The notes under the pieces were generated by a model. That model was not told where the DNA came from, did no database searches, and was given only the letters and a program-made list of their open reading frames with translations. A program made the translations under genes and the position numbers. Shown one piece after another: positions 15,685 to 21,824 of a DNA stretch of 64,000 bases. The first letter of the stretch is position 1, and the number at the start of each line of letters is the position of its first letter. This stretch comes from Halomonas binhaiensis. GTDB lineage: Bacteria; Pseudomonadota; Gammaproteobacteria; Pseudomonadales; Halomonadaceae. The DNA lies in the NCBI RefSeq assembly GCF_008329985.2, contig NZ_CP038437.2:2480001-2544000 (forward strand), read 5' to 3'.

Positions 15685-15917
15685 GCGGTAAGCGGTAAGC
15701 GGTAAGCGGTAAGCGGTAAGCGGTAAGCGGTAAGCGGTAAGCGGTAAGCGGTAAGCGGTAAGCGGTAAGCGGTAAGCGGTAAGCGGTAAGCGGTAAGCGG
15801 TAAGCGGTAAGCGGTAAGCGGTAAGCGGTAAGCGGTAAGCGGTAAGCGGTAAGCGGTAAGCGGTAAGCGGTAAGCGGTAAGCGGTAAGCGGTAAGCGGTA
15901 AGCGGTAAGCGGTAAGC
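15685..15917. repeat. Perfect heptamer array (GCGGTAA)x33
   Basis: Thirty-three uninterrupted copies of GCGGTAA (GCTTACC on the other strand) start 11 bp after the acyl-CoA synthetase stop codon. No substitution is seen in the array. Read leftward it is open in all three frames as a repeated LTAYRLP peptide, which explains long spurious ORFs there. Perfect copies imply recent expansion or a length-variable locus. Confidence 0.97.
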
Positions 15918-16001: not shown

Positions 16002-16169
16002 ACTTATCGCTTCAAGCTTATGGCTTACGGCTCGTGGCTTAAAGCTTAAAGCTTATGGCTTAAAGCTTATGGCTTATGGCTTATGGCTTATGGCTTATGG
16101 CTTATGGCTTATGGCTTATGGCTTATGGCTTATGGCTTATGGCTTATGGCTTATGGCTTACAGCTCTTG
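16002..16169. repeat. Heptamer array GCTTATG and variants
   Basis: About 24 consecutive heptamers of the form GCTTANN. Thirteen perfect GCTTATG copies (16065-16155) are flanked by degenerate units such as GCTTCAA, GCTTACG, GCTCGTG and GCTTAAA on the left and GCTTACA and GCTCTTG on the right. It mirrors the array at 15685: read outward from the central hairpin both carry GCTTANN. It ends 11 bp before the hpt stop codon. Confidence 0.95.
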
Positions 16170-19705: not shown

Positions 19706-19942
19706 ATGAGTCATGAGAGCGGAAAGCGCCCCTTGGAAGTCGCCTGCCCGCAATGCAAGAAACGCGTCGCCTGGAGCCAGGACAATCCCTACCGCCCCTT
19801 CTGCAGCAAACGCTGTCGCTTACTAGACCTTGGAGCCTGGGCAGATGGCACACACCGCATTGCCGGAGAACCAGCGATGGATGAAACCAGCATAGATGAA
19901 TGGGTAGCGCAAGCAGAGCGGGACCAACATCTCAATGACTGA
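19706..19942 (+). CDS. yacG: DNA gyrase inhibitor / zinc protein YacG
   Basis: A 78-residue zinc-ribbon protein that in E. coli binds GyrB and inhibits gyrase. The four zinc cysteines are in VACPQCKKRVAW and PFCSKRCRLLDLG. The ATG at 19706 is preferred over an upstream extension; AAGGA lies about 11 bases before it. It overlaps the following gene by eight bases. The acidic C-terminus is typical. Confidence 0.93.
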   Translation: MSHESGKRPLEVACPQCKKRVAWSQDNPYRPFCSKRCRLLDLGAWADGTHRIAGEPAMDETSIDEWVAQAERDQHLND

Positions 19943-20831
19943 AGACGCCATGAGCGCTCATATTGCCACACCGGCGTATCGCCTCCTGGCGGAGTTGGAA
20001 CGCCACTTCGATCATATCGTTGAAGGTGTGGAGGAAATGGTCGACGCATGGCAAGCCTCGGGGCTGCCTGCCTGGTCTTTTGATCAGCCACAGGGCGTCG
20101 ATGCCAAATGGCTCAAGCATGTCTTGAGTGACGTCTGGTATGAAGATGGCCAGGATGGTCGTGCGACCCGCAGCCATATCGGCCTGGTCGCAGTAAATGA
20201 AGCCACCTTGAAGAAGGCCTGCGCAGTCAATACAGCCAAGGCAGATTTTGCCAAGGTACTAGCTGATATTCGCAAGGAAGCACCGACTCTTGTTCCCGAA
20301 ATCAAGGCGGTGATTCCCTTTCGCCACCCCGAACTTCACACTCACCTCAAGGGTACCGGCTTGGCACGCCTGCATCTCAAGCAGTGCTGGCGTGCACTGC
20401 CTATCGCCGAAGCTCCCGTGGCGAAAGTCCGTCTAGCCTGGTACAGCAGTGGCCGCTCCATTACACGCCTGAGTGTGGCAGAAGCTGAACGTCGCTTGAT
20501 GGCACTGGACAATGCAGCCGACCACATTCGCATTCAATTGAAACGCTTGGCAGGCATTCCGTCACAAGAGCCCTTGGCGCAAGTACAGCGCCAGGCGCCA
20601 CTCATGCGGGCCAATCTGTTTTTTGCCGAGCCCTTGGCCAATGGCAAGACCCGGCGTGCGCTCAATGTGGCGCTACCTCTGCTCGTCCCCTGTCCTTCGG
20701 GAAAACTGCCTGACCACAATATCCCTCCTTCATCCCCTCCAGTGGAACGAAAAAGGGCTCGGCGCAGCGATGAGCGCCTGGAAGACGAAATGTTTCTACC
20801 AAGCCTGCGAGTCTATCGCTATCGTCAGTGA
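19935..20831 (+). CDS. Tus-like replication terminus-binding protein
   Basis: A 298-residue protein that resembles E. coli Tus, the Ter-bound fork-arrest protein. From memory of Tus, residues 130-140 here (R-H-P-E-L-H-T-H-L-K-G) line up with the Tus segment around His144 (R-F-E-W-V-H-R-H-L-P-G), keeping the His and Gly of the pocket that locks the flipped cytosine. RAL...VAKVRLAWYSSGRSITRL...AERRL aligns with the following Tus segment (RTL...ATLRFGWANKHIIKNL...LAQL), and the C-terminal LPSLRVYRY with PRLHLY. Overall identity is low. It overlaps yacG by eight bases. No Ter core (GTTGTAAC) was seen just upstream. Confidence 0.6.
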   Translation: MTEDAMSAHIATPAYRLLAELERHFDHIVEGVEEMVDAWQASGLPAWSFDQPQGVDAKWLKHVLSDVWYEDGQDGRATRSHIGLVAVNEATLKKACAVNTAKADFAKVLADIRKEAPTLVPEIKAVIPFRHPELHTHLKGTGLARLHLKQCWRALPIAEAPVAKVRLAWYSSGRSITRLSVAEAERRLMALDNAADHIRIQLKRLAGIPSQEPLAQVQRQAPLMRANLFFAEPLANGKTRRALNVALPLLVPCPSGKLPDHNIPPSSPPVERKRARRSDERLEDEMFLPSLRVYRYRQ

Positions 20832-20847
20832 CATCCCCTGAGATGTA

Positions 20848-21156
20848 TCAGGCAACACGTCCCTGACTTTTCAATGTCTCAAGCAAACGCGCAACGTCTT
20901 TAGGCTGCAGCGAATATTCTTGCATCAGAGTGCGCAAACGCTCCTCGAAGCGGCGATTGGCCTCTTCTTCCACACGCTGCGTTTCTTCTGCTTCCAGGTC
21001 TGCCAGCGAACGCACGGGGGGACCGGTCGGAATCTTGGCAGCTTGAGAAGGGTTATCTAGACCACGCAGCGCTTCCGCAAAGGCATCGTCCAGTTCACGG
21101 AACCGACGCAGTTTTTCACGCTCATCCATAGGCTTCTGAAAGCTCTGTGATTTCAT
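20848..21156 (-). CDS. Small protein with MvaT-like oligomerisation segment
   Basis: A 102-residue protein, unnamed. Its C-terminal third (F70-E-E-R-L-R-T-L-M-Q-E-Y, D87-V, L91-L) matches the N-terminal oligomerisation helix of the neighbouring MvaT (F37-K-D-K-L-E-S-L-M-S-E-F, D54-V, L58-L) with identical spacing, but the YKNP...GGNHKTLKAW DNA-binding domain is missing. Residues 50-85 are strongly helical and charged (coiled-coil-like). It lies 630 bp downstream of the mvaT start on the same strand, behind mvaT's terminator, with its own palindrome upstream. A modulator of MvaT through hetero-oligomers is inferred. Confidence 0.7.
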   Translation of the reverse strand: MKSQSFQKPMDEREKLRRFRELDDAFAEALRGLDNPSQAAKIPTGPPVRSLADLEAEETQRVEEEANRRFEERLRTLMQEYSLQPKDVARLLETLKSQGRVA

Positions 21157-21172: not shown

Positions 21173-21184
21173 ACGACATGTCGT
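21173..21184. promoter_or_regulatory. 12-bp perfect palindrome upstream of the small MvaT-like gene
   Basis: ACGACATGTCGT, 17 bp before the ATG at 21156, next to a TTGACG that could be a -35 element for leftward transcription. It may be an operator for this gene. The regulator is unknown. Confidence 0.4.
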
Positions 21185-21355
21185 CAATTGGGAACATATT
21201 AATGTCCAAAAGAGCATGCCTGAAAAAATAGCCGAAGTGCCGTATCAGCATTACAAGCCATATGCAGCCTGATTATTTATACGCTAGAAATGCCCTAGAG
21301 AGGCACGTCGCTCGCAGATGATACGAGTTGTGCAGGGATCTGACAGGGGCAAATC

Positions 21356-21382
21356 AAAATGGCCGCGGGGCGCGGCCATTTT
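21356..21382 (-). terminator. mvaT: mvaT rho-independent terminator
   Basis: Perfect 12-bp arms AAAATGGCCGCG/CGCGGCCATTTT with a three-base loop, followed on the minus strand by a T-rich tract, 27 bp after the mvaT stop codon. It separates mvaT from the small gene downstream. Confidence 0.88.
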
Positions 21383-21408
21383 ACCACTTCCTGGAGACCA
21401 GGTGCGAA

Positions 21409-21786
21409 TTACTCTTCTACACGCACCAGCCAGGACTCTACGGTATCAGCACCGTGCTCTTCCTTCCAGGCTTTCAGGGTCTTGTGGTTACCACCACGGG
21501 TTTCCACGACCTCACCGCTGTTCGGGTTCTTGTAGATTTTCAGCTTGCGCTTACGACGGCCATCAGAGGCAGGCGCGGCTTTGCCAGATGTAGAACGGGA
21601 CGATGGATCAAGCAGCGCAATGACATCAGCAGTGCTTTTGCCAAATTCACTCATCAAAGACTCAAGCTTATCCTTGAACTCAAGCTCGGCCTTCAGGCGA
21701 TCATCATTCTGCAGTTTCTCGAGGCGCGTTCTGAGCTGCTCGAGCTGCTGCTCCATCTGCATGTAATCATTCAGAAGTGACGACAT
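21409..21786 (-). CDS. mvaT: MvaT/MvaU-type H-NS family silencer
   Basis: A 125-residue nucleoid protein. The N-terminal coiled coil (ELEFKDKLESLMSEF, STADVIALLD) and the C-terminal YKNPNSGEVVETRGGNHKTLKAWKEEHGADTVESW block match Pseudomonas MvaT, which binds AT-rich DNA in the minor groove and silences acquired genes. The ATG at 21786 gives the MvaT-like N-terminus MSSLLNDYM; a TTG at 21795 is also in frame. It is monocistronic, with its own promoter and terminator. The AT-rich upstream region suggests autorepression. Confidence 0.92.
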   Translation of the reverse strand: MSSLLNDYMQMEQQLEQLRTRLEKLQNDDRLKAELEFKDKLESLMSEFGKSTADVIALLDPSSRSTSGKAAPASDGRRKRKLKIYKNPNSGEVVETRGGNHKTLKAWKEEHGADTVESWLVRVEE

Positions 21787-21824
21787 ATTACTCAACCTTA
21801 GAATTTATTCAGGAATGCACAAGT

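Follow-up and report, generated by a model that had tools for sequence, protein, structure and literature searches.

A Small MvaT-Derived Protein Without a DNA-Binding Domain Encoded near mvaT in Halomonadaceae: A Candidate Modulator of MvaT Filaments

The Locus in Halomonas binhaiensis

The window analyzed here, a 64,000-nucleotide stretch of the Halomonas binhaiensis genome, carries on its minus strand mvaT, the gene for a silencer of foreign DNA, and, downstream of it, a small gene whose product appears to be derived from MvaT. The small gene (20848..21156, minus strand) begins with ATG and encodes a protein of 102 amino acids in which no DNA-binding domain is detectable. The mvaT gene (21409..21786, minus strand) runs from an ATG at 21786 to a stop at 21409, with a TTG at 21795 as another possible start. 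It is the sole MvaT gene found in the genome of the window, where the next match has an E value of 0.5.

Between the two genes lies a GC-rich hairpin (21356..21382, minus strand), which is likely the mvaT terminator. The 61-nt stretch around it (21345–21405) folds with a z-score of −3.2, and 1 of 200 shuffled sequences folds equally well. The original prediction, made from the sequence of the window, had placed the small gene on the same strand just after the mvaT terminator; the order, the strand and the hairpin between the genes are as described, but a terminator scan does not have this hairpin in its list. The same prediction had also credited the small gene with a palindrome of its own. 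A 12-bp palindrome, ACGACATGTCGT (21173..21184, no strand assigned), is indeed present upstream of the gene, yet it is neither conserved nor over-represented: the genome holds two exact copies, and nine places match with at most one mismatch versus 29 for a reversed control pattern. Inspection by eye of the region upstream of the small gene in 21 relatives showed the palindrome only in the near-identical locus L033. Being neither enriched nor conserved, it was rejected as a regulatory site. As a separate observation, also made by eye, an element resembling a −10 box, GCGG(G)TATACT, recurs approximately 70–90 bp before the start of the small gene at several Halomonas loci (L048, L051, L079, L107).

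A gene for a 298-amino-acid protein (19935–20831, plus strand) converges on the small gene. Its product has no NCBIfam match, no consistent Pfam match over nine members and no match among PDB sequences, even when a nine-sequence profile is used; a resemblance to Tus was left unsupported by these searches and was dropped. Farther away in the window, two 7-bp tandem arrays were noticed, namely 33 perfect copies of GCGGTAA (15685–15917) and about 21 copies of GCTTATG with 89% match (16016–16160).

Organization of the Small Protein

The small protein is laid out in three parts: an N-terminal helix (amino acids 12–32), a variable linker and a module resembling the central dimerization site of MvaT (amino acids 66–98; 20863..20961, minus strand). 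This arrangement was followed in an alignment of 50 members, hand-picked for diversity from the 147 that were located. The 147, which include near-identical sequences, comprise 143 collected with a start motif and four added by hand, while open reading frames misfitting the motif were skipped. Within the family alignment, the N-helix, annotated as residues 11–33 (DEREKLRRFRELDDAFAEALRGL; 21058..21126, minus strand), is the best-conserved part, with a mean column entropy of 0.36 bits, compared with 2.21 bits for the linker and 1.89 bits for the central-site module. The near-invariance of the helix breaks down in the strongly diverged candidates from two genomes (G075 and G133). The linker varies in length, a quarter of it is gapped, and the motif IPTGPPVRSL occurs in just part of the family.

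An AlphaFold2 model based on 96 sequences predicts helices at residues 12–32, 51–80 and 85–97, with a turn between the last two, so that a helix-turn-helix is predicted where the MvaT-like module is expected. The mean pLDDT is 82.6, with block means of 94–96 over residues 61–100, and the pTM is 0.43. In two genomes (G101 and G103), the linker has nearly disappeared, which leads to a 72-amino-acid reading of the protein. The model of one such short form, whose mean pLDDT is a modest 74.6, has helices at 14–34, 37–50 and 55–67, in the same predicted order as the hinged first and short second helix of MvaT. With the model of the small protein, Foldseek gave no significant structural match and VIA-align, on its two candidates, gave none either, a negative outcome that is uninformative for an extended helical protein.

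The C-terminal AT-pincer domain, through which MvaT binds DNA, is missing. The corresponding Pfam model (MvaT_DBD, PF22055) matches MvaT with an E value of 1.4e-23 and does not match the small protein, which stops after the central module. The absence of a C-terminal DNA-binding domain, put forward in the original prediction, is thus borne out.

Relationship to MvaT

Residues 70–92 of the small protein (FEERLRTLMQEYSLQPKDVARLL) and residues 37–59 of MvaT (FKDKLESLMSEFGKSTADVIALL, counted from the ATG at 21786) are identical at 9 of 23 positions in a gap-free alignment. The identities are F, L, L, M, E, D, V, L and L, accompanied by a Y/F pair, and the identical spacing reported at the outset is hereby confirmed. 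Aligned without gaps, the two proteins attain a best score of 50, and when the small protein was shuffled 1500 times, one shuffled sequence reached this value. BLASTP with composition correction found no match between them, and a PDB search with the single sequence of the small protein returned nothing relevant (best E value 0.049). The NCBIfam model silencer_MvaTU (NF041859) does match, with an E value of 3.7e-5 and residues 59–98 placed on model positions 27–64, though at 23.9 bits the score is below the family cut-off of 75 and a whole-protein match is not reached. When 50 diverse members were scanned singly, 40 matched silencer_MvaTU at E ≤ 0.01 and 16 matched the MvaT model; four families other than MvaT were matched, each by one member.

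Stronger evidence comes from the comparison of profiles. The profile of the 50 small proteins matches that of 33 hand-picked MvaT sequences with a probability of 92.4% over 33 columns, and the C-terminal part compared with MvaT residues 32–62, the central site, reaches 97.2% and a score of 43.3. Among 200 column-shuffled MvaT profiles, the top score was 23.5 and the top probability 12.1%, and none reached 43.3; a reversed-profile control gave 0.24%. A search of PDB with the family profile placed TurB first (5b52, E value 0.015) and third (8h8h, E value 0.17), both weak matches, with an interferon gamma chain ranking between them. When 390 genomes of the order were searched with the same profile, 14 small-protein genes and 33 further matches passed a per-genome cut-off of E ≤ 0.01, and 30 of the 33 fall inside mvaT genes by coordinates. 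The remaining three (in G449, G326 and G520) are about what chance would give at that cut-off, and outside the family, the profile found in these genomes MvaT genes and these stray matches. The profile search against the MvaT family proposed with the original prediction therefore returned homology (92–97% between profiles; E value 3.7e-5 with NCBIfam), and the similarity is, as judged from the sequences, homology and not chance.

The homology is confined to one region. For TurB of Pseudomonas putida, residues 1–31 have been described as the terminal dimerization site and residues 32–58 as the central one (PMC13141940), and the numbering of TurB is that of the first row of the MvaT alignment. 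Because residues 66–98 of the small protein align with 32–64 in this numbering, the protein is considered to carry the central dimerization site. Its N-terminal part, compared by profile with MvaT residues 1–31, gave 0.24%, which means no similarity to the terminal site. The alignments hence indicate that the part common to the two proteins is the central dimerization site only. An origin of the N-helix as a relic of the MvaT terminal site was also considered; it is unsupported by these profiles, despite the MvaT-like order of helices in the 72-amino-acid form.

Within the central module, the coinciding core residues of the small protein and MvaT are F70/F36, L74/L40, L77/L43, M78/M44, E80/E46, Y81/F47, V88/V54, L91/L57 and L92/L58. 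F70 and L77 are kept in all 50 aligned members, and the remaining core positions in 36–46 of them. The charged positions diverge from MvaT, with K37 of MvaT replaced by E in 38 of 50, K49 by Q or L in 45 of 50 and D53 by S in 23 of 50, so heterodimerization with MvaT is not guaranteed. Charge complementarity of the central modules was tried and rejected as a rationale for a heterodimer: the pair in the window has +1.8 versus −3.2, and the pattern fails family-wide, where the mean module charge is −1.35 for 83 distinct small-protein modules and −2.59 for 37 distinct MvaT modules.

Distribution, Inheritance and Genomic Neighborhood

Among 254 genomes of the salt-loving Halomonadaceae, each at least 90% complete, 211 have a match to the small gene at a threshold of E ≤ 0.001. 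These genomes come from 14 of 24 genera and include the two with borderline, strongly diverged candidates (G075 and G133). It was undetected in the other 43, all of which have mvaT. Among the matchless genomes listed, to which 23 more are to be added, none belongs to the genus of the window. In a first sample of 58 relatives, the small gene had been found in 35 and an mvaT match in 40. The original prediction had counted homologs in genomes without mvaT as evidence against itself. There are none, but this comparison is powerless, as mvaT is present in 254 of 254 genomes of the family; since mvaT is universal, its co-occurrence with the small gene carries no information.

A search of plasmids, phages and viral contigs gave no confirmed match to the small protein. 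In a protein search, those of the best 120 of 249 matches that carry an organism name come from Halomonas, Vreelandella and Billgrantia or bear the name of a higher rank; one of them is HELO_2714 of Halomonas elongata, with 61% identity. Matches to PHROGs were weak, the best being a family that MvaT itself matches strongly. In seven of eight close pairs, the dN/dS ratio of the small gene is 0.04–0.17, and in the remaining pair it is 0.38. The mvaT values of the first two pairs reflect reading frame or unaligned length and were set aside; in the three pairs where both genes can be validly compared, mvaT has 0.009–0.06 versus 0.10–0.38 for the small gene, meaning that mvaT is more tightly constrained. 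The small gene is a vertically inherited core gene in much of Halomonadaceae.

Neighborhoods were counted in the best 80 of the 164 confirmed relatives' named loci. In 79 of the 80, mvaT is located upstream of the small gene, on the same strand and within 5 kb, and L103 is the sole exception. Together with the distribution across genomes (211 of 254), this linkage bears out the conservation of the pair in Halomonadaceae. Other neighbors are rpsA (67 of 80) and the 298-amino-acid gene (65 of 80). Moreover, in 52 of the 80 loci, a gene for an AraC-type regulator is situated between mvaT and the small gene and is divergent from the latter; the one copy checked (L005:339-1142, minus strand) matches Pfam HTH_18. 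In the genome of the window, an 87% identical relative of this regulator is found about 280 kb away, at contig position 2780793. At nine loci (L038, L047, L062, L076, L084, L089, L094, L095 and L098), mvaT adjoins the small gene, with the regulator in eight, and neither rpsA nor the 298-amino-acid gene occurs in the DNA covered, some stretches of which are short. As these loci keep mvaT without the outer neighbors, the block seems to travel together.

The linkage is not absolute: some genera have the two genes separated by 7–17 kb or located on different contigs. In a comparison by coordinates of 24 genomes, unusual cases included, both genes are on the same strand and 0.1–17 kb apart in 20; they are on different contigs in three (in G036, both near contig ends), and one diverged candidate is far away. 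In genome G060, to which the exceptional locus L103 seems to belong, mvaT is 7.3 kb from the small gene on the same strand. In genus g37, represented by two genomes (L177:3961-4392 and L178), mvaT adjoins the 298-amino-acid gene with no recognizable small gene between them, so the gene was either lost there or never present. Genome G133 (L170/L192) has two diverged family members of about 65 amino acids on the same strand, no more than about 1 kb apart, each consisting of a short N-terminal stretch and a central-site module.

Proposed Mechanism and Alternative Interpretations

MvaT filaments have been modelled, on the example of TurB, as a chain of alternating central-central and terminal-terminal contacts (PMC13141940). 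Should the small protein bind MvaT by its central site, the filament would come to a stop on the side of this subunit, which has no terminal site, and one DNA contact would be lost with the missing DNA-binding domain. In effect, the ratio of small protein to MvaT would govern how long the filaments grow and how much they bridge and, through this, the firmness of foreign-gene silencing. The conserved N-helix would presumably have a second job, which may be self-association, docking on MvaT or binding of another partner. What the sequence comparisons show is homology to the central site, no DNA-binding domain, an unrelated and near-invariant helix in place of the terminal site, core status and usual proximity to mvaT. 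On the whole, it is somewhat probable that the product of this vertically inherited gene, an MvaT derivative with no DNA-binding domain, caps or loosens MvaT filaments by central-site pairing. The proposal from which the analysis started, a modulator of the MvaT silencer, is in this way partly supported, namely by the homology, the missing DNA-binding domain and the long-term conservation near mvaT.

The N-helix, and not the MvaT-like part, is the most conserved region, and the main function may consequently lie elsewhere. Its near-invariance is the best argument for something more than a passive cap, and it keeps two other interpretations alive. According to one of them, the small protein is a co-silencer: it would join MvaT by the central site, self-associate or dock on MvaT through its N-helix, and in this way stabilize MvaT-DNA complexes or link them to one another, which is the role of Hha with H-NS. 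A nearly invariant helix would be superfluous in a subunit that did nothing but end the filament, Hha and YdgT are described as enhancing H-NS bridging (PMC6936261, PMC8501957), and vertical inheritance with persistence near mvaT is no less expected of a helper than of an antagonist. The protein has, however, no DNA-binding domain, no Hha/YmoA model is found among its Pfam and NCBIfam matches, and a dimerizing N-helix would be an assumption, which together make a co-silencer rather unlikely.

The other interpretation derives the small gene from a duplication of mvaT and places its present role outside silencing: the central module would homodimerize, the N-helix would serve an unrelated function, and the location near mvaT would be a relic. 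This would agree with the strongest constraint falling on the N-helix, with the diverged charged positions of the module and with the loose linkage in several genera. It is nonetheless improbable, given that mvaT is the most constant neighbor tested, also in the nine loci that lack the usual outer neighbors, and that all 50 members keep F70 and L77, while the rest of the core is retained in 36–46 of 50. Finally, a chance or convergent coiled-coil similarity unrelated to MvaT, which could appeal to the failure of pairwise BLASTP, the ease with which short helical stretches match, the weak TurB matches in PDB with an unrelated chain between them and the lack of a significant Foldseek match, is very improbable in view of the shuffling, reversal and whole-genome specificity controls.

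The capping model may be extended further. In this broader form, the small protein would be a family-wide, built-in and inherited regulator, a central-site-only MvaT subunit that caps filaments and whose N-helix connects capping with another partner or with a signal. The divergent AraC-family regulator at 52 of 80 loci suggests that such a system could release silenced foreign genes in a switchable manner. This extension is tentative and slightly less likely than not.

Comparison with Known Modulators of Xenogeneic Silencing

The closest analogy is H-NST, a truncated form of H-NS encoded in E. coli genomic islands, for which action through mixed oligomers has been proposed (PMC6936261, PMC7074111, PMC8501957). 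Both proteins show homology to the oligomerization region of the resident silencer and are without the silencer's DNA-binding domain. Unlike H-NST, the small protein appears to be derived from MvaT and not from H-NS, it is encoded by a core gene near the silencer gene and not by an island, and it has a new conserved N-helix; antagonism by the small protein is putative. H-NST itself is characterized differently in the available descriptions, as being without the oligomerization site (PMC6936261) or as having the whole dimerization/oligomerization domain (PMC7074111). The small protein keeps the central site and is without the terminal one, and the contrast with H-NST rests on the description in PMC6936261. 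Should capping of filaments hold, the protein would work like H-NST.

Residues 66–98 of the small protein match the central dimerization site of MvaT, MvaU and TurB. In contrast to these silencers, it has neither the terminal site nor the AT-pincer domain, and it scores 23.9 against the 75 bits required. It resembles the Hha/YmoA/YdgT group as a small protein with a putative role in modulating a silencer whose DNA-binding domain it does not have; it differs in being derived, as it appears, from the silencer itself, and no model of the Hha/YmoA family is among its Pfam or NCBIfam matches up to an E value of 1. Another small protein, LUZ24 gp4 (Mip), is a phage inhibitor of MvaT described as binding terminal site 1 (PMC8501957). 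The target proposed here would likewise be the MvaT oligomerization domain. In searches of phages and viral contigs, no homolog of the small protein was found. In other words, the small protein is not an MvaT, since the required score, the terminal site and the DNA-binding domain are all missing, and it is neither H-NST nor Hha.

Significance

Table 1 of a 2019 review gives truncated derivatives of MvaT as "unidentified" (PMC6936261), and a limited literature search together with that review revealed no such derivative. If the interpretation is true, the small protein would be, as far as this search shows, a truncated MvaT derivative without reported precedent and, on one of the two descriptions of H-NST, the structural complement of that protein. 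The silencing exerted by H-NS is tuned by binding partners, among other means. A partner encoded in the core genome and conserved in much of Halomonadaceae would mean that the role of truncated silencers extends beyond anti-silencing by mobile islands. The protein might also serve as a natural reagent for learning which dimer site of MvaT controls filament length and bridging. Halomonas is used in biotechnology, and a regulator of this kind, if real, would be relevant to gene expression in these bacteria.
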